The translations under genes were made by a program, and so were the position numbers. Source: Seleniivibrio sp. (GTDB lineage: Bacteria; Chrysiogenota; Deferribacteres; Deferribacterales; Geovibrionaceae). Taken from it: a stretch of DNA of 64,000 bases. Shown piece after piece: positions 38,387-62,434 of this stretch. How positions within the stretch are numbered: the stretch's first letter is position 1; each line of letters opens with the position of its first letter. The notes beneath the pieces are model-generated. The model ran no database searches. It saw only the letters and a list, made by a program, of their open reading frames with translations, and was not told the DNA's origin. The stretch covers positions 62,001-126,000 of the forward strand of contig NZ_JAJOIL010000037.1 of assembly GCF_021209385.1 (NCBI RefSeq), in the 5' to 3' direction.

Positions 38387-39106
38387 CTAATTGATATGCA
38401 CTTCCAGATCTTCAATTTTATAACCCCTTCCCCTAACCGAATAAATAAGACGCTTATTAAAAGGTTTATCAACAAGGGTTCGCAGAACCCAAAAATGAGC
38501 CTTCAGCGCGTCACTCAGAGGAGGCTGGTCACGCCAAAGATCGTACTCAAGCTCCCCACGGGAAACAAACCCCGGAGATTTTTCTACCAGCCGATGAAGA
38601 ATACGGAAACATACTGCGGAAAGCCTGATATTATGTTCCCCGCGCTTTACAATTCCTTTCTCCGGGTCAAGGGTCAGATCACCTATTTTAAATAAACCGG
38701 AACAGGAATGGATTTTCTGTTTTTCTAAAACCGCCTGTATTCTGGTAAACAATTCATCAGGTCTGAACGGTTTTGAGATATAATCGTCGGCTCCGCATCT
38801 CAAGCCTTTTAGTATATTTGATGAATCTATCCTGTTTGTCAGAATAATGACCGGAATCTTAAGACACAGAACCTGTCTGATATTGGAACAGATATCAAAA
38901 CCGTTCATTCTATGAAGATTGATGCTGAGAAGTATCACATCATAAACGTTATCCTTCAGAAGAGAGATAGCTTGTTGTCCAGATGCGGTAAAGTCGGTCG
39001 AACAATGCCTCTTTTCCATATAATCTATTATTTCTTCCGCCAAATCGTAATCCTCTTCAATAAGAAGAAGTCTCAGACACATATTTTCAGATAATAATTC
39101 AAGCAT
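38387..39106 (-). CDS. OmpR-family response regulator with a degenerate receiver (Asp replaced by Ser)
   Basis: A 239-residue regulator. The receiver keeps the acidic pocket (Glu17, Glu18, Asp19), the conserved Thr90 and Lys112 (DDYISKPF), but the phosphoacceptor position is Ser61 in VILLSINLHRM, where the close paralog at 55401-56099 has VILDINLHGM. The codon is AGC, not a one-base change from Asp. The C-terminal winged-helix DNA-binding domain (FRILHRLVEKSPGFVSRGEL, RGRGYKIEDL) is intact. It probably acts without phosphorylation, through dimerisation or another signal. It lies 186 bases after the first molybdoenzyme locus, in the same direction, and has no kinase beside it. The ATG at 39106 has a weak GGGTG site; a second in-frame ATG at residue 9 is possible. 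Confidence 0.85.
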   Translation of the reverse strand: MLELLSENMCLRLLLIEEDYDLAEEIIDYMEKRHCSTDFTASGQQAISLLKDNVYDVILLSINLHRMNGFDICSNIRQVLCLKIPVIILTNRIDSSNILKGLRCGADDYISKPFRPDELFTRIQAVLEKQKIHSCSGLFKIGDLTLDPEKGIVKRGEHNIRLSAVCFRILHRLVEKSPGFVSRGELEYDLWRDQPPLSDALKAHFWVLRTLVDKPFNKRLIYSVRGRGYKIEDLEVHIN

Positions 39107-47957: not shown

Positions 47958-47971
47958 CCAACTAACGTTGG
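47958..47971. promoter_or_regulatory. TetR-type operator 1 (CCAAC-N4-GTTGG)
   Basis: CCAACTAACGTTGG. On the minus strand a candidate -35 TTGGAA overlaps its edge, with TATATT 16 bases on, so binding would block the locus 1 promoter. Confidence 0.65.
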
Positions 47972-48016
47972 ATAATATATCTAAGCACCTGTTCGACATA
48001 GCTGTCAAGTGAAATT

Positions 48017-48030
48017 CCAACGACTGTTGG
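48017..48030. promoter_or_regulatory. TetR-type operator 2 (CCAAC-N4-GTTGG)
   Basis: CCAACGACTGTTGG, a perfect inverted repeat with a four-base centre, 59 bases from copy 1. Confidence 0.65.
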
Positions 48031-48051
48031 ACTTATGATAAATTTATGTAT

Positions 48052-48065
48052 CCAACGTTTGTTGT
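48052..48065. promoter_or_regulatory. TetR-type operator 3 (imperfect)
   Basis: CCAACGTTTGTTGT, one mismatch from the other two, 34 bases before the TetR start codon, consistent with autoregulation. Confidence 0.6.
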
Positions 48066-48098: not shown

Positions 48099-48707
48099 AT
48101 GACTAAAAAAAGCAGAAATTTTTTACAAAACAGAAATGATATAATCGAATTGACAATAGACCTGATAGCCACAAAAAGCGTTGCTTCCGTAAGCATGAGA
48201 GATATCGCAAAAGCCGCGTCTGTGGACACATCCACCCTCTATTATTATTTTAAAAATAAAGAAGATCTGATGTTCCAGATTACCATTCACATAAATGAAA
48301 AAATGCAGGAAGCGCTTCTGAAACTTGACATATCGGAATTTAAATCCGACGAGGAAAAATTCAAATATATTGTGCGATACGTATATGATTATCTGTGTAA
48401 GAAACCTGCACACGCAAGTACTATGAGACAGATGTCTGTAATGGGAAATCTCATTCTGTCAAAACAGATAATGGAAAAGTTCTGGATATAACGGTAAATA
48501 ACCTTATGGTCATGGATTTTTTCAAAGTAGCTTGAATCAAGATACCCGGTCATGCAAACACTGGGGCTGACATCCACGCTTTTCTGTTACATGCCTGTAT
48601 ATGACCTGGCTTTACATACATATTTCCCTCACACTGTCACGGAAAAGCAAATCAACGTTTATATAAACGCTTTATGGAATTCAATCAAAGACTGCAGTAC
48701 AGATTAA
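48099..48707 (+). pseudogene. TetR-family regulator, broken by two compensating single-base indels
   Basis: The first 125 codons give a normal TetR start: helix-turn-helix VSMRDIAKAASVDTSTLYYYF near residues 30-50 and a helical ligand domain. The frame then hits a stop at 48489. One base less in the A-run at 48475-48478 explains this: in the +2 frame the sequence continues VLDITVNNLMVMDFFKV, and after one extra base at about 48530 the first frame resumes with LESRYPVMQTLGLTS and runs to a natural stop at 48705. Repaired, the protein is 202 residues, the usual TetR length. It diverges from locus 1 and the three operators lie between them. Either the repressor is dead or the sequence has errors. 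Confidence 0.8.
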
Positions 48708-50813: not shown

Positions 50814-50918
50814 AAAGGTCTCCTTATTTTATTTATTATCGGAACACACTCGTGGAAACGTATGACGACCCGAATAAGAACATAATCTTACTCAGAAATC
50901 TCCACACCGTTATTTTTG

Positions 50919-50936
50919 CTTCACCAATGCTTCACC
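50919..50936 (+). promoter_or_regulatory. Response-regulator box upstream of the sensor kinase gene
   Basis: CTTCACC AATG CTTCACC, two identical half-sites 11 bases apart, as bound by OmpR-family dimers. A -10-like AT-rich stretch (TAAAAT or TTATGG) follows within 30 bases, so transcription would start near 50960. This supports a kinase start codon downstream of that point. Confidence 0.65.
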
Positions 50937-51019
50937 TGTTTGCATTTAAAATTATGGAGATTATACTTGATACATACATTCTTGAGCCTATATTGAGCAG
51001 GGGGAAATTTGGTTTTATC

Positions 51020-52390
51020 ATGAATATAATAAGTAAATCGCTCAGGTTTAGGATTGTTCTTGTATTCTGCGGATTCAGCATACTGCTTGGTACTGCTATG
51101 TTTGCAGGTATCCTTATTTCCACTAAATATACCGAACAATACGCACTGAAAAAAAGACTTCAGCTTGAAACTGAACGATATATCGAATCAATTTCCCGCT
51201 CCCCGATATCACCAGTAGCTTTCAGCTCAGAAATACCCGTGCCGGATTCACCTTATATGACAAGCTATCTGGGTGAGGATCTTATGCCGGAATGGGCTGT
51301 GAAAGAGCTTTCGCACCTGAAAGAAGGCAACTATGAAAAGCAGAATGATAAACAGAATTATTATATAAATATAAGAGACTTACAAGATGGACAGCGGTTT
51401 TATCTTCTGTTTAATGTCACAACTCTTCTGAACGATCACAGCATGATGAACATCATCAGGGAATATCTTATGATAACCCTTCTGCCGACATTCATCTTGG
51501 GTCTGATGCTGGGAGTAATAACGGCTTACAAAGCTGTTTCACCTGTTGTCCGCCTCACGAAAATAGTCAAGTCTAAGGACGAAACCGGCTATCTTCCAAA
51601 AGATATGGCACAGAAGTTTGAAAGCGACGAAGTCGGCTTCCTCGCCACCACCCTTGAACACGCCATCCGCGAGATGCAGTCGGCAATAGACAGAGAAAAG
51701 GCTTTCGCAAGGGATGCCAGCCATGAACTGCGTACCCCGCTTACGGTTATGCAGGGGGCAATAAAGATACTTTCCGACGATGTGCGCGACGATGATTTCA
51801 AAAAACAGAATGTTCTTTCCCGCCTTAAACGCGCCGCGATGAATATGGAACACCTGATAAATTCGTTCCTCTGGCTTTCAAGACAGGAACGCAGAGACAC
51901 AAACGGCACCAGCAGAGTTGCCGAGGTTGCAAGAGAGTGCATTGATAACAATCTCTATCTTATGCGTAACAAACAGATAAAAATAACCCTGAACGAATAT
52001 GAACAGGCTGTTCTTCCTGTTGCGCCTGAAATACTTACCATCATTTTAGGTAATCTTATACGCAATGCCATGACTTATACGCAGCAGGGGGAGATAATAA
52101 TATCAATATACGGACCCTGTATCTCCGTACAGGACTCAGGACCCGGTATACCGAAACATGTCCTTGACAATATAAACGTTGTGGGCGGTGTTTCAAAGGC
52201 AGACGGATTCGGATTCGGACTTTCAATAGTACACAGGATGTGTTCTCAGCTCGACTGGAGACTGAATATTCAGTCTGAAGAGGGAAAAGGAAGTAAAATA
52301 ATATTATGCTGCAGCAGCAAAGGCAGACCGGAGCAAAATTGCCCCGGTGTGTGCAAACCTGCGGCGTTATCAAACGGGGTAATTGCATGA
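51020..52390 (+). CDS. Sensor histidine kinase of locus 2
   Basis: A 456-residue membrane kinase. One helix near residues 11-32, a periplasmic sensing part of about 115 residues, a second helix near 150-170, a HAMP linker (SPVVRLTKIVKS), the dimerisation/phosphoacceptor site FARDASHELRTPLTV, and an ATPase domain with NLIRNAMTYT, VQDSGPGIP and FGFGLSIVHRM. It has no receiver or Hpt domain, unlike TorS. I chose the ATG at 51020 because the regulator box and likely promoter lie at 50919-50960; the frame is open upstream to 50852. The stop overlaps the TorA-like start (ATGA). Its partner is most likely the regulator at 55401. Confidence 0.85.
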   Translation: MNIISKSLRFRIVLVFCGFSILLGTAMFAGILISTKYTEQYALKKRLQLETERYIESISRSPISPVAFSSEIPVPDSPYMTSYLGEDLMPEWAVKELSHLKEGNYEKQNDKQNYYINIRDLQDGQRFYLLFNVTTLLNDHSMMNIIREYLMITLLPTFILGLMLGVITAYKAVSPVVRLTKIVKSKDETGYLPKDMAQKFESDEVGFLATTLEHAIREMQSAIDREKAFARDASHELRTPLTVMQGAIKILSDDVRDDDFKKQNVLSRLKRAAMNMEHLINSFLWLSRQERRDTNGTSRVAEVARECIDNNLYLMRNKQIKITLNEYEQAVLPVAPEILTIILGNLIRNAMTYTQQGEIIISIYGPCISVQDSGPGIPKHVLDNINVVGGVSKADGFGFGLSIVHRMCSQLDWRLNIQSEEGKGSKIILCCSSKGRPEQNCPGVCKPAALSNGVIA

Positions 52391-54762
52391 ATACAGACCG
52401 CAGAGAGTTTCTGAAAATGGCGGGAGCTTTTGCAGCAATGCTTACCTGCAATCCTGAAGCACTGGCAGCAGGAGACAGGGTTATAACCCATGCGACACAC
52501 ATGGGACCCCTCAAAGCGTACGTCAGAAACGGAAAGATAGTCCGTATAGAGGCAATGGACATAGATCTTGATCCCGTAGATCTTCTTTTTGCTCACAAAG
52601 ACGCGGTGTATGCACGCAACAGGGTAAAATACCCCTGCGTAAGAAAGAGCTATCTCGACGGTAGCGACCGCAGACACATGCGCGGCGCAGAAGAGTTTGT
52701 CCGCGTTGACTGGGGAACGGCTCTTGACCTTGTAGCAGAGGCGCTTGCCAAAACTAAAGGCGAATACGGCAACGAATCCATATTCAAAACAACATATGCA
52801 AGGTGGGCTCACCCCGGGCGAATACATCAGGCGGCATCGCTTCAGGCAAGGATGCTTGGACTTTTCGGAGGATTTACGGACATAGTCGGCGATTATTCCG
52901 CAGGAGCCGCCACACAGATATTGCCCCACGTCATGGGCGACATAGAGGTATACAGTCAGCAGACATCCAGAGAAGTTGTTCTGGACAAAACGGAACTCAT
53001 ACTTATGTGGGGAGCAGACCCGTTTAAAACCAACAAAATAGACTATCACGTTCCCATTCACTCCGACGGCGCGTGGCTCCGCAAGATGAAAGACAAAGGT
53101 ATAAAGTTTGTAACCATAGACCCCACGAAGAACATGTCCGTTGACGAACTCGGAAGCGAATGGGTGCCGATAAAAGCGGCAAGCGACGTGCCTATGATAC
53201 TCGCAATGTGCTATACGCTTTATGAAGAGAAACTTTACAACAAACAATTCATTGACAAGTACACTGTGGGATTCAATGTATTTCTGAAATATCTCCGCGG
53301 CGAAAAAGACGGAAAGGTCAAAAACGCAAAATGGGCGGAAAAGATATGCGGCGTTCCTGCACAGAAGATAAAAGAGCTTGCCCGCATGGCAGTGAAACAC
53401 AGAACACTGGTGACGGGAAGCTGGGCTCCTCAGCGGATACAGTACGGCGAACAGTTCCACTGGAGCCTTGTGGCACTTGCCAGCATGATAGGGCAGATAG
53501 GACTGGCAGGCGGCGGCATATACTTCAACATCCACTATTGCAGTGCCGGAGCACCCTATACTGGTGTCGGAGCGCCTCTAATGCTCTCACAGGGACGCAA
53601 CCCCGTAAATATACTTATCCCTGCATCAAGAATGGGTGAAATGCTGCTTAACCCCGGCAAAACGATAGACTATAACGGTAAAAAACTGACGTATCCGAAC
53701 ATAAAGCTGATATATTCCGCAGGCGTGACCCCTATCGGACACCAGCCGAATGTAAACAAGCTTGTGGAAGGGTTCCGTAAAGTTGACACTGTTATCACAC
53801 ACGAGCCATGGTGGACTCCGACAGCAAGATATTCCGACATTGTGCTTCCCGCAACAACAAGCTTCGAGCGCAACGATATATCCTTCGGTTCTTCATACGG
53901 CATAGAGTACGCGTTTGCAATGAAACAGGTAATATCACCCCTTTTCGATGCAAGAAACGATTACGACATCTTCCTTGAGCTTTCAAAAAGGTTCGGTTTC
54001 GAGAAAGCTTATACCGGAGGCAAATCCGTTGACGAGTGGATAAGATGGAGCTACAGCAAAATGCGCACGAAGGTAAGCTTCAGCGATTTCTGGAAAAAAG
54101 GCTACGTGCATTTCACGTCACCTAAATCCAGCAGAGAATATGTACGACATGCGGATTTCCGCAAAGATCCGGTAGCAAATTATCTGCGTACGCCTTCCGG
54201 CAAGATAGAACTTTTCTCCGAAAAGGTCGCTTCTTTCGGCTACAACGACTGCCCCGGTTATCCAGCATGGATAGAGCCGACAGAAGGTCCCGCATCATAC
54301 ATGGCGAAAAAATATCCTTTCCAGCTCATAACTCCCCACCCGATACACAGACTGCACTCGCAGCTTGACAATACATCTCTAGGGGCTAAACATAAAGTAG
54401 CGGGACGCGAACCGGTATACATGAACAAATTCGACGCACGCCGCATGGGACTGAAGCACGGAGACACAGTTGAAGTTTATAATTCACGCGGAACAGTTCT
54501 TGCCGGTGTGGTGCCGACGGAAAAGATAACAAGGGGCGTGCTTGCAATTGAAGAAGGCGCATGGTATGCGGCGGAAAACCCTTCAAAAGATAACTCACGC
54601 TGCGTATCAGGTCAGGTGAACATACTGACATCAGACCGCCCCACATCAAGACTGGCACAGGCAATATCCGCCAACACCTGCCTTGTCGCGATACGCAAAG
54701 CAGGCGGCAAACTGCCGCGCAATACAGCATATGACAGCCCGCCTGTCAGGGAGAGACTCTAA
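52387..54762 (+). CDS. TorA/BisC-like molybdopterin reductase (TMAO/DMSO-type)
   Basis: A 791-residue Tat-exported enzyme (DRREFLKMAG, residues 4-13). Unlike the other two molybdoenzymes here it lacks the N-terminal [4Fe-4S] cysteines, as TorA and BisC do, starting the mature part with THATHMGPLKAYV. The likely Mo ligand is Ser171 in IVGDYSAGAATQ, the TorA-type motif. Other marks are LILMWGADPFKTNKID and the C-terminal GDTVEVYNSRG. It should reduce TMAO, DMSO or another S/N-oxide in the periplasm. Its start overlaps the kinase stop; the true start is not the upstream ATG at 52306, which is inside the kinase gene. A monoheme protein follows, as a TorC substitute. Confidence 0.88.
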   Translation: MNTDRREFLKMAGAFAAMLTCNPEALAAGDRVITHATHMGPLKAYVRNGKIVRIEAMDIDLDPVDLLFAHKDAVYARNRVKYPCVRKSYLDGSDRRHMRGAEEFVRVDWGTALDLVAEALAKTKGEYGNESIFKTTYARWAHPGRIHQAASLQARMLGLFGGFTDIVGDYSAGAATQILPHVMGDIEVYSQQTSREVVLDKTELILMWGADPFKTNKIDYHVPIHSDGAWLRKMKDKGIKFVTIDPTKNMSVDELGSEWVPIKAASDVPMILAMCYTLYEEKLYNKQFIDKYTVGFNVFLKYLRGEKDGKVKNAKWAEKICGVPAQKIKELARMAVKHRTLVTGSWAPQRIQYGEQFHWSLVALASMIGQIGLAGGGIYFNIHYCSAGAPYTGVGAPLMLSQGRNPVNILIPASRMGEMLLNPGKTIDYNGKKLTYPNIKLIYSAGVTPIGHQPNVNKLVEGFRKVDTVITHEPWWTPTARYSDIVLPATTSFERNDISFGSSYGIEYAFAMKQVISPLFDARNDYDIFLELSKRFGFEKAYTGGKSVDEWIRWSYSKMRTKVSFSDFWKKGYVHFTSPKSSREYVRHADFRKDPVANYLRTPSGKIELFSEKVASFGYNDCPGYPAWIEPTEGPASYMAKKYPFQLITPHPIHRLHSQLDNTSLGAKHKVAGREPVYMNKFDARRMGLKHGDTVEVYNSRGTVLAGVVPTEKITRGVLAIEEGAWYAAENPSKDNSRCVSGQVNILTSDRPTSRLAQAISANTCLVAIRKAGGKLPRNTAYDSPPVRERL

Positions 54763-55292
54763 TTAAAGTACTTATAATAGTTGTGCTTTGCTTCGCTGCA
54801 TTTTATGCGGGTACAACCTCGCAGGTGCAGACGATGTATCTGAGCAAACCTTTAAAAATGAAAAACGGCAGCCTTTCTGCCATTGTATATACAGGAACGT
54901 CAGTACAAAGCGAAAAACTCGGCAAAAAATGGATAATAAGAAAACAGTTCTGGATATCGAACGAAGGGGAGCTTTTTGAAAGCAGTTCCTCAGAGGCACC
55001 TACCGGCAATGTAAAGTCGGGAAATATCGGAAACAACGGTTTCTACGCCACATTCACAGCCTCCGCAAAAGACGGACTGCTGGTATGCAACCTCAGTGAC
55101 GCCATCACCGAAATGGACTCTTTGTACTATGAACGATGCGGCACATGCCACAGAGCATACGATCCGGATATGTACACAGCGGCTCACTGGAAAAAAATAC
55201 TTGAGTCCATGAAAACTCTCTCCGGCATCTCTCAACAGGAAGAGACGGAGATAATGCGTTATCTGAGCCTGCTTGCAAAACGCAAAGATTGA
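54762..55292 (+). CDS. Exported monoheme c-type cytochrome, TorC C-terminal-like, possible AUU start
   Basis: A protein of about 176 residues with a single heme motif (YERCGTCHRAYDPDMY) in its last quarter. This part resembles the C-terminal heme domain of TorC-type cytochromes, which deliver electrons to TorA. The only standard start codon, GTG at 54783, gives a signal peptide without a positive charge. Reading from ATT at 54762, which overlaps the torA-like stop, gives [I/M]KVLIIVVLCFAAFYAGTTSQ, a perfect signal sequence, with AGGGAGAG eight or so bases upstream. I therefore prefer the AUU start; if wrong, the gene begins at 54783. Confidence 0.75.
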   Translation: MKVLIIVVLCFAAFYAGTTSQVQTMYLSKPLKMKNGSLSAIVYTGTSVQSEKLGKKWIIRKQFWISNEGELFESSSSEAPTGNVKSGNIGNNGFYATFTASAKDGLLVCNLSDAITEMDSLYYERCGTCHRAYDPDMYTAAHWKKILESMKTLSGISQQEETEIMRYLSLLAKRKD

Positions 55293-55337
55293 CATAAACG
55301 AGGTGCGTCATCACAAACTATTAGACATTTTGCAGCA

Positions 55338-55364
55338 CTTCACCATAATTTGACCGTAATTTCG
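55338..55364 (+). promoter_or_regulatory. Response-regulator box upstream of the regulator gene
   Basis: CTTCACC ATAA TTTGACC GTAA TTTCG, three half-sites with an 11-base period, followed by TATGTA as a possible -10 about 24 bases after the second half-site. It implies autoregulation. Confidence 0.65.
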
Positions 55365-55400
55365 TTATTATTATGTATATATACACATGGAGCATTTTAA

Positions 55401-56099
55401 ATGAAATTTCTGCTTGTTGAAGATGATCTGGACATAGCGGAGAACATTATTGAATTTATGGAAGGACGAGGATTCGACATGGATTACGCTATGTCCGGAG
55501 AAATGGCTCTTGAGCTTTTGAAAGACAATACCTACGACGCCGTGATACTGGACATAAACCTCCACGGTATGAGCGGATTCGAGGTCTGTTCAAACATACG
55601 AAAGGTCATGAGGCTGAAAATCCCCGTACTGATGCTGACAGCAAGAATTCTGCTGGACGACAAGATAAACGGTTTTGAATGCGGTGCTGACGATTATCTC
55701 ACCAAGCCGTTCGATCTTGAGGAACTGCTCATCCGTCTGAAAGCTCTGTCCAGAAGGTTCAGACAGTGCGTGACAAACGCTTTTTCTGTTGCCGACCTCA
55801 GCCTCGACCCTGAAAAAGGCACAGTTGAAAGATCCGGCGACTCCATCATCCTGCCTCATGTATGTTTTCGCATATTGTTGAGACTGATGGAAAAATATCC
55901 GGGGATAGTATCAAAGGAAGAGCTGGAATACGACATATGGAAGGATCAGCCGCCAGTAAGCAACTCGCTCAAGTCCCACTTTTATATCCTTCGTCAGCTG
56001 GTGGATAAACCTTATGAAAAACAGCTTCTCCACAGCATACGCGGACGCGGGTATAAAATAGACGATAACCATGTCGAAACGCAGGGCGAACCTGAATAG
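55401..56099 (+). CDS. OmpR-family response regulator of locus 2
   Basis: A 232-residue two-component regulator with an intact receiver: acidic pocket Glu7/Asp8/Asp9, phosphoacceptor Asp51 in VILDINLHGMSG, Thr80 and Lys102 in DDYLTKPF. The C-terminal winged-helix domain (FRILLRLMEKYPGIVSKEEL, RGRGYKIDDN) is closely similar to that of the degenerate regulator of locus 1. The cognate kinase is probably the one at 51020. Direct-repeat boxes before the kinase, this gene, the barrel gene and a candidate RNA are the proposed binding sites. The ATG follows GGAG at eight bases. Confidence 0.9.
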   Translation: MKFLLVEDDLDIAENIIEFMEGRGFDMDYAMSGEMALELLKDNTYDAVILDINLHGMSGFEVCSNIRKVMRLKIPVLMLTARILLDDKINGFECGADDYLTKPFDLEELLIRLKALSRRFRQCVTNAFSVADLSLDPEKGTVERSGDSIILPHVCFRILLRLMEKYPGIVSKEELEYDIWKDQPPVSNSLKSHFYILRQLVDKPYEKQLLHSIRGRGYKIDDNHVETQGEPE

Positions 56100-56198
56100 T
56101 ATTTGATTTTCAAATAGTCATTATATTGTGTTTGCACGGCGTTATTCATCTCATATATAACGAATTTTTTCACACTATTTCTTTACATTTTTTAATCA

Positions 56199-56216
56199 TT
56201 TGACCAATGCTTCACT
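56199..56216 (+). promoter_or_regulatory. Response-regulator box upstream of the locus 2 barrel gene
   Basis: TTTGACC AATG CTTCACT with an 11-base period and a third degenerate half-site (CATTGAT) after it. TATTAA at 56234-56239 is the likely -10, 24 bases after the second half-site, so the box replaces a -35 element. Confidence 0.68.
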
Positions 56217-56280
56217 CTGTCATTGATAACCTCTATTAAGAATAAGTTCTTCTTGTTCTATCATAAAGGAGGAAGCAACG

Positions 56281-57708
56281 ATGAGAAAAATACTTTCATG
56301 TATTTTTATGCTGGCTTTGGGTGCCGGCAGCGTTTTTGCCTCCGGACTTGAGGATGCGGATTACACGACTCCTGAGAGCTGGCAGGTTCATACGACGCCA
56401 CAGGGGATAACAAAGACCGCAAACGGACACAAGTTCGGCGACGGCACTTTAAACGTTTCTCTCACATCGCGTTACAAGCTGCTGGACAATGATTATCAGT
56501 CTGATCAGAACTTTTATCAGTATCTGAAAGCTGACATATCAAATGTCACAGTCGGTCAGGGCACCATGTCCGGAGTTTTATTCATGCGTGCCGGCAAGGA
56601 TATTGACGGCGACGGCGGATACAAACAGTCCGGACGCTACTATTTCAGAGACGACATCCTGGATGCGGAAGACAGCGGATGGGCTGTAAGAATGTATCAG
56701 GGATTCCTGAAATTCTCCGGTGTGGTAAAAAACACCAACCTGACAATAGGCAACCAGTATGTGACCCATCTGGACACCATCCACATGAACGGTGTTGACG
56801 GGGATGTAACACTGCTGAACAACAAACTGACGGTCTATGCCTTCGGCGGGCAGCCGGACACGTTCTATCTTGACGACAATGATGCCAAAGCCGCAGGCAC
56901 AGGCTTTGTGGCAAAGCTGACCGACAAGCTGAAACTCTCTTCCGGTTACACCTATGTGGACATGGACGACGAGACATCCGACATTTATAAACTGCGCGCG
57001 GATTATACCTATGCAAAAGGCAGGGTATCAGGCGAGTACGGCAACACGGACGGCAACGGATTCTATACACTCGACGGTGTATACAGAAACAGCCCCACAA
57101 AAACAACACTCACCCTGTCATTCCAGCAGCTTCTGGATGAGATAGGAAAAGGCGAAGGCACTTATATTTCAAACCCCATAACCTATTCGCTCTCACCTTA
57201 CGGCAAATACACCAAAGTGAAGGCGAAGGTTTATCAGGGTCTGGGAAAATACATGGCGGCAGGGCTTGGCGCAGAGGTCAAGAACAGAACCGGAGAGGAC
57301 ACTCTGGACAACAGAAGCTATGTTAAATATTCCGGCAACCTCGATTTCATAGGTCTTTTCACGCCCGACACCTTCCTGTCTCTTACTGCTGACTACTGGA
57401 ATGTAGCGGAAAGTGTGGATACCGAGGAAAACTCACAGGTTGCTTTCGGCGGCGAACTTACACAGGTCGTTTCAGACAAAACAAACGTATGGCTCGGTTC
57501 CAGATTCAACAGGTTCGAGTATGACCTTGACGACGGTTCGGAAAAGAACTGGGTGCGCGAGATATATCTCGGCGGCGAACACAAATTCAGCGAAAGAGCC
57601 GCTCTGTCTGTTGATGTCAGCTATGAAAACAGCCAGATACTCAAAGACCTGAACACCGACCTTGAACAGAACTACAGCGTTGAGCTGTGGCTCAGTCTGG
57701 CTATATAA
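56281..57708 (+). CDS. Outer-membrane beta-barrel protein (locus 2)
   Basis: A 475-residue paralog of the locus 1 barrel. Signal peptide with cleavage after VFA (about residue 20), then SGLEDADYTTPESW. Shared blocks include GYLKFSGVVKNT/GFLKFSGVVKNT, NPITYSLSPYGKYTKVKAKV and VSDKTNVWLGSRFNRFEYD. The C-terminus ends in an amphipathic strand (VELWLSLAI). It is likely a porin for the substrate of the enzymes encoded downstream, or a partner of the multiheme cytochrome. A strong AAAGGAGG ribosome-binding site precedes the ATG, consistent with high expression. Confidence 0.82.
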   Translation: MRKILSCIFMLALGAGSVFASGLEDADYTTPESWQVHTTPQGITKTANGHKFGDGTLNVSLTSRYKLLDNDYQSDQNFYQYLKADISNVTVGQGTMSGVLFMRAGKDIDGDGGYKQSGRYYFRDDILDAEDSGWAVRMYQGFLKFSGVVKNTNLTIGNQYVTHLDTIHMNGVDGDVTLLNNKLTVYAFGGQPDTFYLDDNDAKAAGTGFVAKLTDKLKLSSGYTYVDMDDETSDIYKLRADYTYAKGRVSGEYGNTDGNGFYTLDGVYRNSPTKTTLTLSFQQLLDEIGKGEGTYISNPITYSLSPYGKYTKVKAKVYQGLGKYMAAGLGAEVKNRTGEDTLDNRSYVKYSGNLDFIGLFTPDTFLSLTADYWNVAESVDTEENSQVAFGGELTQVVSDKTNVWLGSRFNRFEYDLDDGSEKNWVREIYLGGEHKFSERAALSVDVSYENSQILKDLNTDLEQNYSVELWLSLAI

Positions 57709-57718
57709 GGCGGGTATC

Positions 57719-58186
57719 ATGAAATATGTAATATCTATAATGTTCTGCCTGATATGCATGACAGTTTTCGCATATCAGACATCAAAACCGGAAACACACG
57801 ACAACATGTGGATCAAACAGCACGGCGCAGAGAGCAAGGCTGATCCCGATTCATGTCTGGACTGCCACGAAAACCGTACGTCCTGCATAAAATGCCACGC
57901 GGACACACCGCCAAGAGACCACAACGCGTCATTCAAACGCAAAACTCACGGTCTCAGGGCGCAGTGGGACAGAGACAAATGTCTCGTGTGCCACACAGAG
58001 GCAAGCTGTTTCGCATGTCACCAGACTGCCGCACCCATATCTCACAGAGGTGACTGGGGCGGAAAAATAAGCACTAACGACAAGAATCTGCACTGCAGAA
58101 GCGGATGCCACTATCCTGTTCAGGAAACAACATGCGGAACGTGCCACATGACATCGCACGGTCCCAGAGAACTGATCAGTAATTAA
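57719..58186 (+). CDS. Periplasmic multiheme c-type cytochrome (locus 2)
   Basis: A 155-residue paralog of the locus 1 hexaheme cytochrome. Signal peptide up to VFA (residue 18), then five CxxCH motifs at Cys46, 56, 88, 97 and 139. The position of the fifth heme in the paralog is here Cys126-Arg-Ser-Gly-Cys130-His131, a CX3CH motif. Either heme is attached there in an unusual way or this copy has five hemes. The ATG at 57719 follows GGCGGG ten bases after the barrel gene's stop. The cytochrome likely passes electrons to the DmsA-like enzyme encoded next. Confidence 0.9.
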   Translation: MKYVISIMFCLICMTVFAYQTSKPETHDNMWIKQHGAESKADPDSCLDCHENRTSCIKCHADTPPRDHNASFKRKTHGLRAQWDRDKCLVCHTEASCFACHQTAAPISHRGDWGGKISTNDKNLHCRSGCHYPVQETTCGTCHMTSHGPRELISN

Positions 58187-58197
58187 GGAGGGCAAAA

Positions 58198-60900
58198 ATG
58201 TCAGTAATGGATAAACAACGTATTGATAAAGCTCTGGATATTTCCAGAAGAACATTTGTGAAATGGAGCGCGCTTCTCGGCGCGGCAGCAACTGTAGGCT
58301 GCGGTTCCATGGGCGGATCAGACAAGATAGACGACGACTATGACAGTTCAGACACAGTAATCGAGCCAAAAAATTTCGATTACGACAAAGCTGTATGGTC
58401 TGCATGCAACGTTAACTGCGGAAGCAACTGTCCCCTTAAGCTTTATGTTAAGGACGGCGTGGTTGTCCGCGTAAGCTCCGACAACGAATCCGACGATACA
58501 TACGGCGCATACGGCGCAAGCTATCAGATGCGTTCATGCGTTCGCGGACGTTCCGTACGCCAGAGAATATACAACGCGGACAGGCTTAAATACCCCATGA
58601 AGAGAGTTTCAGGCACCCCCAGAGGCGCCGGACAGTACGAGCGCATCTCATGGGATCAGGCGATCAGCGAGATAGCCGCAAGCATGCAGTCGGTTAAATC
58701 CAACTACGGTCCCGGCGCATTCTACATCCAGTATGCAACAGGTACAATATGCGGGAAATTTTCATGCTCATGGCCGCCCGCATCAACTCCCATGGCAAGA
58801 CTGCACAACCTCTGGGGCGGATGGCTGGATCACTATTCAGACTATTCAACCTCACAGATCACCGCAGAACTCTGCCTTCTTGAAGGAACAAGCTGGAGTA
58901 ACAACACCATCACTGATGCAGTGAACAGCAACCTTGTGGTTCTCTGGGGCAACAACCCTGCGAACACCAGAATGGGTTCTGCGAAACACTTCACATATCA
59001 CCTTCAAAAAGCGAAAGAGGCTAACCCCGACCTCAAATTCCTCATTGTTGACCCCTATTACACCGACACGGCGATCGCTCTTGAAGCGGACTGGATAGCT
59101 ATCCGCCCCGGAACGGATTCAGCTCTTGTGGCTGGTATGGCAAACTATCTGCTCAGTGAAGGTCTTCTCGATGAAACATGGATAGACGCACGCAGCGTGG
59201 GCTGGAGCGAAGCTTCACTTGCGGGCGTGGTTGAGGTTACGGCAGGTTCCGAAAGCTACTATGAACCGGCATATGACAAAGCATGGGGAAACACAGACTC
59301 AACAGAACCCGTTATCCCCGCAAACAGCTCATACAGATCATATATACTTGGTCTCGGAACCGACGGCATAGCGAAAACACCCGCATGGGCATCAGCTATA
59401 ACAGGTATTCCCGAAGCTACCATTAAATCCTTCGCAAAACAGCTCGTCAACCAGTCCCCCGCGATGGTCATTCAGGGCTGGGGTCTTCAGAGACACTCTC
59501 TCGGCGGCGCAAACTCCAGAGCAGTGGGTCTGATAACCATCCTCACCAAAAACATCGGTATCGTCGGCGGCGGTTCGGCAGCAAGGGAAGCGGCAGCATC
59601 AGTTTCAATCAGCATGGATGCATGGTCAAGCACTTTCCCCGCAAACCCTGTGACATATACCATATCCAACTTTGCATGGCCTCAGGCTATCAAAGACAAC
59701 ACTGTAATGACAGGAAGAAACTGGGGTGTAAGAGGACTTGCCACTCAGGACACTGCCCTGCCTCTGCCCATCAAGTTCATATGGAACTACGCAGGCAACT
59801 GTATGCTTAACCAGCACGCAGACGTCAACAGCACAATGGATATGTACAAAGACGAAAACCTTGTACAGACAATCGTCACCATAGACAACTATTTCACTCC
59901 TTCTGCCATGATATCCGACTACATCCTGCCAGACTGTACCAACTTCGAGCAGAACGACATGTCCACAAACGAAGGCGGAAACACTTGTGACATCAAGTTC
60001 CAGAACAAAGCAGTGGAACCCATGTTCGAGTGCAAGACCATCTATGAAATGATGAGCCTTATATCAGCAAAACTCGGTATCGAATCCGCATACACAGAGG
60101 GCAGAACTCAGGACGAATGGCTTGAATACCTGTTCAACCAGTCTATGACAAACTACGGAGATCAGGGAGTGTTCACATCGGCTCTCGGTCAGGATACCTA
60201 TGCAAAATGTCATGCAAAAGGGCTGATCAAACATGTAAGCACAACAGCTACCCCCTCTGTAGCATTTCAAAGTTATGTCAGCGACCCGACATCCAACAGA
60301 GTATCCACTCCGTCAGGTAAATTTGAGATATTCTCCAAACGTCTCTACAACCTCAAACACCAGTGGGTATTCCCCGCTGTTTATAACGACGGAATGGACA
60401 AGATAACCCCTCTTCCCGAATACTATGCGGCTTGGAACGGTTACGAAGACCCCGCAAGAAGCACATATCCGTTTCAGGTTGTGGGCTTCCACTACAAACA
60501 AAGAACCCACTCAACCTACTACAACTGTGAATGGAACAGGGAAGCAAGCATGCAGACGGCTTGGATCAACACAGACGACGCTCAAAGCCTTGGCATTGCC
60601 CACGGAGACACAGTTGAGATTTACAACAGTCACGGCAAAGTGCGTATTAAAGCGAAAGTAACGTCGAGGGTAATGCCCGGCGTTATCGGTCTGCCTCAGG
60701 GAGCATGGTATAACCCCGGCGGCAAATGGTACAGCAGCGACATAGTACACTCCGGCACTCTCACAACAGCTGAAATAGGCAACACGGACGTTGTGGACTA
60801 CGGCGGATGCATGAACGTCCTCACCAGCCTGCGCCCCGGACCTGTTTCTAAAGGCAACTGTCAGCACAGCGTTCTCGCTGCCGTCAAAAGAGTAGGCTAA
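58198..60900 (+). CDS. DmsA-like Tat-exported molybdopterin oxidoreductase (locus 2)
   Basis: A 900-residue catalytic subunit. Tat motif SRRTFVKWS (16-24) and lipobox-like VGC at Cys35. The [4Fe-4S] ligands are canonical: Cys70, Cys74, Cys78 (SACNVNCGSNCPL) and Cys114 (RSCVRGRS). The likely Mo ligand is Ser217 in HYSDYSTSQI, as in DmsA. Cofactor-binding parts include LVVLWGNNPANTRMG and GDTVEIYNSHGKVRI. It should reduce DMSO or another oxide, selenate, or a similar oxyanion; the sequence does not settle which. The start has GGAGGG upstream. The DmsB-like subunit follows after ten bases. Confidence 0.9.
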   Translation: MSVMDKQRIDKALDISRRTFVKWSALLGAAATVGCGSMGGSDKIDDDYDSSDTVIEPKNFDYDKAVWSACNVNCGSNCPLKLYVKDGVVVRVSSDNESDDTYGAYGASYQMRSCVRGRSVRQRIYNADRLKYPMKRVSGTPRGAGQYERISWDQAISEIAASMQSVKSNYGPGAFYIQYATGTICGKFSCSWPPASTPMARLHNLWGGWLDHYSDYSTSQITAELCLLEGTSWSNNTITDAVNSNLVVLWGNNPANTRMGSAKHFTYHLQKAKEANPDLKFLIVDPYYTDTAIALEADWIAIRPGTDSALVAGMANYLLSEGLLDETWIDARSVGWSEASLAGVVEVTAGSESYYEPAYDKAWGNTDSTEPVIPANSSYRSYILGLGTDGIAKTPAWASAITGIPEATIKSFAKQLVNQSPAMVIQGWGLQRHSLGGANSRAVGLITILTKNIGIVGGGSAAREAAASVSISMDAWSSTFPANPVTYTISNFAWPQAIKDNTVMTGRNWGVRGLATQDTALPLPIKFIWNYAGNCMLNQHADVNSTMDMYKDENLVQTIVTIDNYFTPSAMISDYILPDCTNFEQNDMSTNEGGNTCDIKFQNKAVEPMFECKTIYEMMSLISAKLGIESAYTEGRTQDEWLEYLFNQSMTNYGDQGVFTSALGQDTYAKCHAKGLIKHVSTTATPSVAFQSYVSDPTSNRVSTPSGKFEIFSKRLYNLKHQWVFPAVYNDGMDKITPLPEYYAAWNGYEDPARSTYPFQVVGFHYKQRTHSTYYNCEWNREASMQTAWINTDDAQSLGIAHGDTVEIYNSHGKVRIKAKVTSRVMPGVIGLPQGAWYNPGGKWYSSDIVHSGTLTTAEIGNTDVVDYGGCMNVLTSLRPGPVSKGNCQHSVLAAVKRVG

Positions 60901-60910
60901 GGAGGATAAG

Positions 60911-61525
60911 ATGAGCAAACAGTACGGATTCTACATAGACACCAAACACTGTACAGGATGCAAAGCTTGCTTTGTCGCCTGTAAAGACAGACAGAACCTG
61001 AACACCGGAGAAAAATTCAGAAAAGTTTATGAATTCTCCGGCGGCACATGGAGCAGTGCTGACACAGACGCTTTCAGCAAGAACGTGTTCGCATTTTATG
61101 TCTCCATGTCATGCAACCAGTGCGACAATCCGGCATGCCTTAACGTATGCCCAGCAGGCGCATATACGAAAAGAGATGCGGACGGCATCGTTGTTTACGA
61201 TGCTTCCAAGTGTATCTCCTGTTTCGGATGCCAGAAAGTATGCCCCTACACAGCTCCGGTATACGATTATGAAGCACAGCACATGAAAAAATGTATCATG
61301 TGTACTGATGAAAAAGATTCCAGCGGCATACCCGACCCCGCTTGTGTCAAGGCTTGCCCCTCAAGGGCGCTTGACTTCGGCGAGATCGAAGCGCTGAAGG
61401 CAAAATACGGTGATGCAAACACCGTGGCATCCTTCCCGACAACAACCAAACCCAATGCCGTCTTTAAGCTCCATAAAGACGCGTCATCCGGCAATGTTGT
61501 CATGAACAAGGAAGAAGTATTCTAA
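60911..61525 (+). CDS. DmsB-like four-[4Fe-4S] electron-transfer subunit (locus 2)
   Basis: A 204-residue ferredoxin subunit with four cysteine groups: CTGCKACFVACKD, CNQCDNPACLNVCP, CISCFGCQKVCPY and CIMCTDEKDSSG...CVKACPS. Very similar in layout to the locus 1 subunit. It receives electrons for the DmsA-like enzyme. There is no DmsC-type anchor gene after it; a TorD gene follows beyond a stem-loop. The ATG follows AAGGAGG. Confidence 0.93.
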   Translation: MSKQYGFYIDTKHCTGCKACFVACKDRQNLNTGEKFRKVYEFSGGTWSSADTDAFSKNVFAFYVSMSCNQCDNPACLNVCPAGAYTKRDADGIVVYDASKCISCFGCQKVCPYTAPVYDYEAQHMKKCIMCTDEKDSSGIPDPACVKACPSRALDFGEIEALKAKYGDANTVASFPTTTKPNAVFKLHKDASSGNVVMNKEEVF

Positions 61526-61534
61526 GACGCATCA

Positions 61535-61559
61535 GGCAGGGGTTTTAACAACCCCTGCC
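61535..61559 (+). other. Ten-base-pair stem-loop between dmsB-like and torD-like genes
   Basis: GGCAGGGGTT / AACCCCTGCC with a five-base loop and no T-run. It is probably a transcript-processing or stability element that sets lower chaperone expression, rather than a terminator. Confidence 0.5.
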
Positions 61560-61584
61560 CTCCCAACACCTAAAGGATAGAATT

Positions 61585-62238
61585 ATGAACACTACAGAGA
61601 ACAAAGCATTTGCGGACAGCGAAAAATATCTTGAAGCAATGGCAGCTTTCAGTTTTTTCAACAAGATTCTGCTGGACGCTCCCGAAAGGGAATATATCAA
61701 CACAGTTAAAGAGAATGCGGCGCTCTTTGACGAATGGTGCTTTTCCGACAGCGAAGAGTCAAAAACAGGACTCGAACTGCTGAAAAACTACCTTAAAAAC
61801 TATAAAGACGAAGATTTCACAGAACTTCTGGGAAATTTTAACAGACTTTTCATCGGTCCCGGGCACCTGTTCGCCCCGCCATGGGAATCCGTTTACAAAG
61901 AGCAGGATAAGACAATCTTCGGCGAAGCTACGCTGAAAGTCCGCGGAAGATACAGAAAATTCGGACTTGAAATAAACAATCTCAATAGAGAACCCGACGA
62001 CCATATCGCGTTCGAGTGTGCATACCTGAACTATCTCTGTGCGGCATCAGCGGCAGCTGAAGATTCCACTGTCGAAAAAGAGGAGATAATCTCATTTCTC
62101 AAAGAACACCCCTCGACATGGGTGGAGGAATTTACTGACAATATGATCGAAAACTCCGTTACGGATTTTTATAAAGGAATTGCACAAATGCTGAGAGGCG
62201 CAATTAAAGAAGCGCTGACCGGTTTGTCCTGTAGGTGA
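61585..62238 (+). CDS. TorD/DmsD-family molybdoenzyme chaperone (locus 2)
   Basis: A 217-residue helical protein with clear TorD-family marks: YNRLF-like NFNRLFIGPGHLFAPPWESVY near residue 85-105, then GRYRKFGLEINNLNREPDDHIAFECAYLNYL. It binds the Tat leader of the DmsA-like or TorA-like enzyme and holds it until the molybdenum cofactor is inserted. It is the last protein gene of locus 2. The ATG at 61585 follows AAAGGA. Confidence 0.9.
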   Translation: MNTTENKAFADSEKYLEAMAAFSFFNKILLDAPEREYINTVKENAALFDEWCFSDSEESKTGLELLKNYLKNYKDEDFTELLGNFNRLFIGPGHLFAPPWESVYKEQDKTIFGEATLKVRGRYRKFGLEINNLNREPDDHIAFECAYLNYLCAASAAAEDSTVEKEEIISFLKEHPSTWVEEFTDNMIENSVTDFYKGIAQMLRGAIKEALTGLSCR

Positions 62239-62245
62239 TGGAATA

Positions 62246-62271
62246 AAGGGCGGTTCGCATGCCGCCCTTTG
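62246..62271. other. Stem-loop after locus 2
   Basis: AAAGGGCGG / CCGCCCTTT with an eight-base loop, followed by GAAAAAAA rather than a T-run. It may be the 3' end of the locus 2 transcript. A second small stem, AACTACA / TGTAGTT, follows at 62278-62299. Confidence 0.45.
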
Positions 62272-62298
62272 AAAAAAACTACAGGAAATCATGTAGTT

Positions 62299-62316
62299 CA
62301 TTACCTTCGCTTTACC
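62299..62316 (+). promoter_or_regulatory. Response-regulator-like box upstream of a candidate small RNA
   Basis: CATTACC TTCG CTTTACC, half-sites 11 bases apart, similar to the three boxes of locus 2. A possible -10 (TTTAGT or TAGTAC) lies 26-28 bases after the second half-site. No protein gene follows on this strand before the converging mscL. Confidence 0.5.
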
Positions 62317-62344
62317 TAGCAAATGTTAAAAATGTTTTAGTACG

Positions 62345-62434
62345 TCATACCTGAGAGTCAGCATCAGGATTGTCAGCGGCGCCGCTAAGGGGACTAGCCT
62401 TTGGGGGGAACGGCAGCCGCTGATACTTTTTTTA
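62345..62434 (+). ncRNA. Candidate small structured RNA ending in a terminator
   Basis: A first hairpin pairs CCTGA (62350-62354) with TCAGG (62364-62368). A second pairs TGTCAGCGGC (62371-62380) with GCCGCTGATA (62416-62425), extended by GCCG/CGGC with one bulged A, enclosing a G-rich loop with a smaller AAGG/CCTT stem, and is followed by eight T residues. It ends exactly at the converging mscL stop codon. I know no family that matches. It may be a small RNA of the locus 2 regulon or just an elaborate terminator. Confidence 0.45.

Follow-up and report, generated by a model that had tools for sequence, protein, structure and literature searches.

Genes and candidate operators at locus 2

The stretch analysed here (the window) comprises 64,000 nucleotides of a Seleniivibrio sp. 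genome of 2.9 Mb in 42 contigs, the nearest named relatives of which, Seleniivibrio woodruffii bin96 and Deferribacteraceae UBA6793, encode regulator proteins 93-94% identical to the one considered below. One of its gene clusters, termed locus 2, consists of an operon for a sensor kinase, a TorA-type reductase and a cytochrome, a gene for an OmpR/PhoB-family response regulator, and a five-gene operon running from a predicted barrel protein through DmsA- and DmsB-type proteins to a chaperone. As the first-pass annotation had described, direct repeats with an exact 11-base period stand at 50919, 55338 and 56199, before the kinase gene, the regulator gene and the barrel-cytochrome-DmsA operon, respectively. 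We refer to these intergenic repeats, each built of two 7-base-pair (bp) half-sites, as boxes 1-3, and propose them as operators of the locus 2 regulator. The features are as follows, with distances in nucleotides (nt).

50919-50936 (+), box 1, CTTCACC-aatg-CTTCACC, promoter of the kinase-TorA-cytochrome operon
50947-50952 (+), -10 hexamer TAAAAT, 10 nt past box 1
51020-52390 (+), sensor histidine kinase with HisKA and HATPase_c domains; start taken from orthologues in preference to a GTG at 50852
52387-54762 (+), TorA/BisC-family S- or N-oxide reductase, second gene of the kinase operon
54783-55292 (+), dihaem-type cytochrome c, last gene of the kinase operon; start uncertain
55338-55355 (+), box 2, CTTCACC-ataa-TTTGACC, promoter of the regulator gene
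55366-55371 (+), -10 hexamer TATTAT, 10 nt past box 2
55401-56099 (+), response regulator of the OmpR/PhoB family that presumably binds boxes 1-3, with phosphoacceptor D51 and recognition helix N188-S-L-K-S192-H
56199-56216 (+), box 3, TTTGACC-aatg-CTTCACT, promoter of the barrel-cytochrome-DmsAB operon
56227-56232 (+), -10 hexamer TAACCT, 10 nt past box 3
56281-62238 (+), regulated operon, five genes from barrel to chaperone
56281-57708 (+), predicted barrel protein, first gene of that operon
57719-58186 (+), multihaem cytochrome with five CXXCH motifs
58198-60900 (+), DmsA-type molybdoenzyme
60911-61525 (+), DmsB-type iron-sulphur protein
61585-62238 (+), DmsD/TorD-type chaperone

Both domains of the regulator scored above their cut-offs (PF00072 receiver, 91.1 bits; PF00486 Trans_reg_C winged helix, 41.5 bits), and in the alignment it retains the phosphoacceptor Asp together with the Thr/Ser and Lys positions (LDINL with D51, LTA and TKPF). 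By sequence, neither the predicted barrel protein nor the multihaem cytochrome matched a Pfam or NCBIfam family, and the structure model of the 56281-57708 product, with a mean predicted local distance difference test score of 32, was unusable and did not confirm a barrel fold. TorA and cytochrome genes accompany the kinase in nearly all of the clusters compared, a linkage that may point to a part for the reductase in sensing or in clearing the signal.

Rarity and conservation of the boxes

In the window, 0.02 matches to the strict pattern YTTSACC-N4-YTTSACC would be expected; there are two, a number that none of 100 shuffled sequences reached. When the genome-wide search suggested by the first-pass annotation was run with the final base relaxed (YTTSACC-N4-YTTSACY), it returned five matches in the 2.9 Mb genome; three are boxes 1-3, and the remaining two lie inside open reading frames (ORFs) and lack a correctly placed -10. 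A scoring matrix derived solely from the sites of three related genomes (G004, G006 and G007) placed boxes 1-3 at ranks 1, 2 and 3 among 127,966 window positions.

An orthologous regulator with the same gene neighbours is present in six relatives, at 73-94% identity. Box 2 is kept in all six orthologous loci, box 1 in five of them (the G002, G003, G004, G006 and G010 orthologues), and box 3 wherever the promoter could be read (G002, G003 and G007), being degenerate in G004. For each 250-bp promoter, even the loosest form of the box pattern appeared in only 0-3 of 300 dinucleotide shuffles. Across 12 family genomes, the box followed by a -10 at 10 nt gave 32 matches as opposed to 4 for the reversed pattern, a comparison that is not fully independent, the pattern having been shaped on these loci. 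Regulator/kinase/TorA/DmsA clusters contain 27 of the 32, and the other five are about the number that the reversed control predicts. Box and regulator also co-occur in their absence: the three genomes that lack the regulator subfamily (G001, G009 and G011; best match E ~1e-28 to 1e-30 vs <=1e-83 elsewhere) contain no match for box plus -10.

At one mismatch, the search for further regulon members remained at control level, with 11 matches vs 7 for the reversed pattern in the host genome (G000), 8 vs 11 in G002 and 13 vs 11 in G003; the G000 sites that were checked are intra-ORF or at gene starts and have no clear support, the exception being a box of a sister cluster on contig C19, described below.

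Two side observations accompany these promoters. In G003, three TTCACTGCCGCGTAGGCAGCTTAGAAA-type repeats with spacers lie at L036 5433-5600, just 5' of the kinase gene and beside box 1; by eye they look like the end of an array of clustered regularly interspaced short palindromic repeats (CRISPR) with a type I-F-like repeat. In G007 (L046, L092; C1:183000-217000), a single regulator/kinase pair is followed by tandem barrel-cytochrome-DmsAB operons, each with its own box; one of these boxes, TTTGACT-ctta-TTTCACC, belongs to the locus 2 class and may answer in trans to that genome's locus 2 orthologue.

Promoter layout and the proposed mechanism

The position of the -10 element relative to the box was examined by scoring a -10 matrix at offsets 0-37 in all 41 boxes of loci that had been chosen for a homologous regulator, the box itself playing no part in the choice. 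A -10 scoring above 2 bits stands at offset 10 in 28 of the 41 boxes, and no other offset exceeds 9 of 41. Offsets 6 and 17, which would apply if half-site 1 or 2 served as a -35, gave no good -10 in any of the 41. The first-pass annotation had placed the -10-like hexamer, in most cases, 23-28 bases past the second half-site; this spacing did not hold up, since good -10s are at background level there (0-7 of 41 boxes) and the hexamer truly starts 10 nt past the half-site in all three strong boxes. The arrangement has PhoB-type class II geometry, with the box at a fixed distance from the -10 and no -35 element. A promoter without a -35 calls for an activator, and the correct placement of the -10 at 10 nt argues for a PhoB-like mechanism in which the box replaces the -35.

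We consider it highly probable, from sequence comparison, that boxes 1-3 are operators of the regulator encoded at 55401-56099, which would take the place of the -35 and so activate the three transcription units that the boxes precede. In the proposed mechanism, the kinase (51020-52390) would phosphorylate the regulator, a head-to-tail dimer of which would bind both 7-bp half-sites along a single face of the double helix. With the box at the -35 position and the -10 exactly 10 nt downstream, the bound dimer would stand in for -35 recognition and recruit sigma-70 RNA polymerase, as PhoB does. Its targets would be the regulator gene and the kinase-TorA-cytochrome operon, control of which would close a positive feedback loop, together with the barrel-cytochrome-DmsA-DmsB-chaperone operon as the output. 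We infer binding, its dependence on phosphorylation, and activation rather than repression; the signal is probably an S- or N-oxide or a related acceptor.

Several observations weigh against this assignment, besides the shared origin of pattern and loci noted above. No box precedes the kinase gene of the G007 orthologue or, within 250 bp, the regulator genes of two paralogous systems (G005 and G007d), and the strict pattern of box plus -10 misses the G004 locus's own promoters. Moreover, the genome encodes many OmpR-family regulators, so that another of them could bind the boxes.

It is also conceivable, though improbable, that the regulator binds the boxes and mainly represses, its dimer, phosphorylated or not, covering the -35 and blocking polymerase until the signal arrives. 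The box does overlap the -35 region, where bound protein could occlude polymerase, and most ArcA sites that overlap a promoter repress (PMC3798270). However, no consensus -35 is found 17 bp from the -10, as the empty offsets 17 and 6 attest; the missing -35 itself points to an activator; and ArcA sites have no fixed location, whereas the boxes here do. That the repeats are chance occurrences or ordinary -35 elements is rejected even though TTGACC is one base from TTGACA, given that neither half-site 2, at 10 nt from the -10, nor half-site 1, at 21 nt, leaves a spacer that a -35 could use, that the centre base varies among C, G, T and A from cluster to cluster, unlike a -35, and that the shuffle and reversed-pattern controls contradict chance.

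Comparison with known systems

The closest parallel in layout is PhoB and the pho box of E. coli, which shares the two 7-bp direct repeats, the 11-bp period, the -10 at 10 nt, a box in place of the -35, and autoregulation. The E. coli phoB promoter (TTTTCAT-AAAT-CTGTCAT, 10 nt, CATAAT) has the same 7-4-7-10 layout as boxes 1-3, and pho boxes are known to substitute for the -35 region (PMC4971064). The half-site differs, being YTTSACY here and CTGTCAT for PhoB, as do the targets, which here are respiratory molybdoenzymes; the locus 2 matrix gives the E. coli phoB box a score of -14.2, and the regulator reaches 144.1 bits against the PhoB equivalog cut-off of 296.2.

In half-site and spacing, the boxes are identical to the TTCAC-N6-TTCAC tag of CreB and BlrA (PMC3660660): box 1 reads TTCAC-CAATGC-TTCAC, and with the locus 2 matrix CTTCACC-GTCA-CTTCACA, the creD tag of E. 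coli, reaches 19.5, a score like that of box 3. The proteins themselves fall short of CreB (120 bits vs a cut-off of 273) and CreC (kinase, 78 bits vs 356). In further contrast to CreBC, the locus 2 system has no creD, and the creD promoter lacks the 10-nt hexamer spacing; the regulon here concerns S- or N-oxide respiration instead of creD or beta-lactamase.

PmrA/BasR likewise binds tandem direct-repeat half-sites (an HTTAA-type box) head-to-tail, and its base-contacting Asn188 and Val192 match Asn188 and Ser192 of our regulator in the alignment (PMC4660055). Its half-site and regulon are different, and the regulator scores 144 bits against the PmrA cut-off of 330.

On the functional side, the TorSTRCAD system of trimethylamine N-oxide respiration in E. 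coli also places a TorA-type reductase and a TorC-like cytochrome under two-component, OmpR-family control. The kinase here is a simple HisKA/HATPase protein and not a hybrid TorS (64.2 bits vs a cut-off of 676.5), no TorT was found among the locus ORFs, and a separate barrel-cytochrome-DmsAB operon is added to the regulon. The tor box is unlike the boxes described here in sequence. The dmsEFABGH operon of extracellular dimethyl sulfoxide respiration in Shewanella resembles the regulated operon in combining an outer-membrane-type protein, a multihaem cytochrome and DmsAB (PMC11302344); the barrel and cytochrome here differ in matching none of the families searched, and a conduit function for them is putative.

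Taken together, the boxes define what we regard as a real and well-conserved candidate regulon of the known OmpR/PhoB kind, with a CreB-like half-site set on a PhoB-like promoter.

Box classes of paralogous systems

Paralogous regulator/kinase/TorA clusters carry boxes of the same 7-4-7-10 layout with another base, T or A, at half-site position 4. Locus 2 orthologues, with Ser at regulator residue 192, have C or G at that position in 36 of 38 half-sites; where the cluster's regulator has Ala192, the base is T in 10 of 10, and where it has Val192, A stands in 20 and T in 9 of 32 half-sites. Residues 188 (Asn) and 192 (Ser) align with Asn188 and Val192 of PmrA, both of which contact bases in the PmrA-DNA complex (PMC4660055). 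CreB carries Thr at the position of Ser192.

Across the sequences compared, box class tracks regulator lineage, and the differing base at position 4 probably keeps co-resident systems separate. A code in which residue 192 alone fixes the centre base is a hypothesis and a lead only, since the regulator tree contains just three lineages and one Val192 regulator (L049), placed in the T lineage, uses T boxes. Our literature search on the co-evolution of OmpR-family paralogues found no papers.

The fourth site and a structured RNA candidate

The first-pass annotation had counted a fourth repeat, at 62299 before a structured RNA candidate, with the other three as one probable regulon of an OmpR-family regulator. 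Orthologue conservation, presence and absence across genomes, and the fixed -10 spacing bear out this grouping for boxes 1-3; for the fourth site it is doubtful. The features concerned are:

62299-62316 (+), box 4, CATTACC-ttcg-CTTTACC, weak for the locus 2 regulator
62327-62332 (+), possible -10 TAAAAA, 10 nt past box 4
62340-62432 (+), structured RNA candidate with a hairpin and T-run at its end, z -3.64

Box 4 keeps the 11-base period and breaks the consensus at three positions. It ranks 16 in the window with the locus 2 matrix, 1 with the T-class matrix and 2 with the A/T-class matrix; because it fits the sister class better than the locus 2 class, it is not to be counted with boxes 1-3. 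Its 16-base core (TTACCTTCGCTTTACC) is invariant in three species, this one and two sister species, while the flanking bases vary, and a conserved, strongly folding segment follows it. Among the family genomes, the RNA candidate occurs only in these three Seleniivibrio-group genomes; the segment was not found 3' of the operon in G004 or G007, and no Rfam family matched at 62340-62432.

At the start of contig C19 of the same genome (L121, G000:C19:1-8000) we observed a DmsB1-like end and a sister-class box at 465, followed by genes of the types found in locus 1. By its gene content this is a second such cluster, cut at the contig end, and a sister-class regulator gene may accordingly lie in the adjoining contig gap.

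Box 4 and the RNA at 62340-62432 could, at not quite even likelihood, be members of the sister system's T/A-centred regulon or of both regulons, in which case the candidate small RNA would link two respiratory systems and the locus 2 regulator would not be its sole controller. The rankings, the invariant core and the cluster fragment on C19 favour this assignment, against which stand the poor first half-site, a weaker RNA T-tract in the sister species, and an assembly in which the only sister-class regulator gene found is the degenerate RR1 (see below). A second, more doubtful reading makes box 4 no operator at all, with the hairpin at 62371-62430 terminating the DmsA operon and the box-like stretch arising by chance or forming part of a 3' untranslated region. 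The location of the element about 60 nt past the last gene, its terminal T-run, the poor half-site 1 and the missing segment in G004 and G007 agree with a terminator; conservation of the box core without its flanks, and a TAAAAA hexamer at the spacing fixed throughout the family, do not.

Locus 1

The first-pass annotation had noted that locus 1, elsewhere in the window, lacks such a box and has TetR-type operators instead, and both statements agree with our results: neither locus 1 nor its regulator gene is preceded by a box, and three CCAAC-N4-GTTGG palindromes (one with a mismatch) lie at 47958-48065, between a TetR-type gene and locus 1. The count of this palindrome over the whole window is not unusual, and all three fall in that single promoter gap; they are likely the operators of locus 1. 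The TetR-type gene at 48099-48690 (+) is interrupted, encoding an N-terminal 130 residues before a stop, with a C-terminal-like remnant (VMQTLGLTSTLFCYMP...) in the same frame past further stops; it may be either a pseudogene or a sequence error.

38387-39106 (-), locus 1 regulator RR1, which shares 54% identity with that of locus 2

In RR1, Ser occupies the position of the phosphoacceptor Asp. The gene has no kinase neighbour and no box upstream, its branch in the tree is very long, and it is probably a phosphorylation-independent or decaying paralogue.

Implications

For a two-component system in Deferribacterota, a group with few defined examples, the analysis supplies a candidate operator together with a promoter layout and a regulon, and it ties that system to respiratory molybdoenzymes of the S- or N-oxide type. 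We consider the sister box classes the more interesting part of the finding. It is a rather unlikely conjunction, yet one worth stating, that co-resident paralogous systems of the Geovibrio/Seleniivibrio-type family share one rigid 7-4-7-10 layout and are separated chiefly by one base per half-site, read at the positions aligned with PmrA 188 and 192, and that one such box also drives a small RNA linking locus 2 with its sister system. Paralogues with the same layout and other centre bases, found in the same genomes, form a natural series on how specificity diverges in the OmpR/PhoB family without cross-talk.

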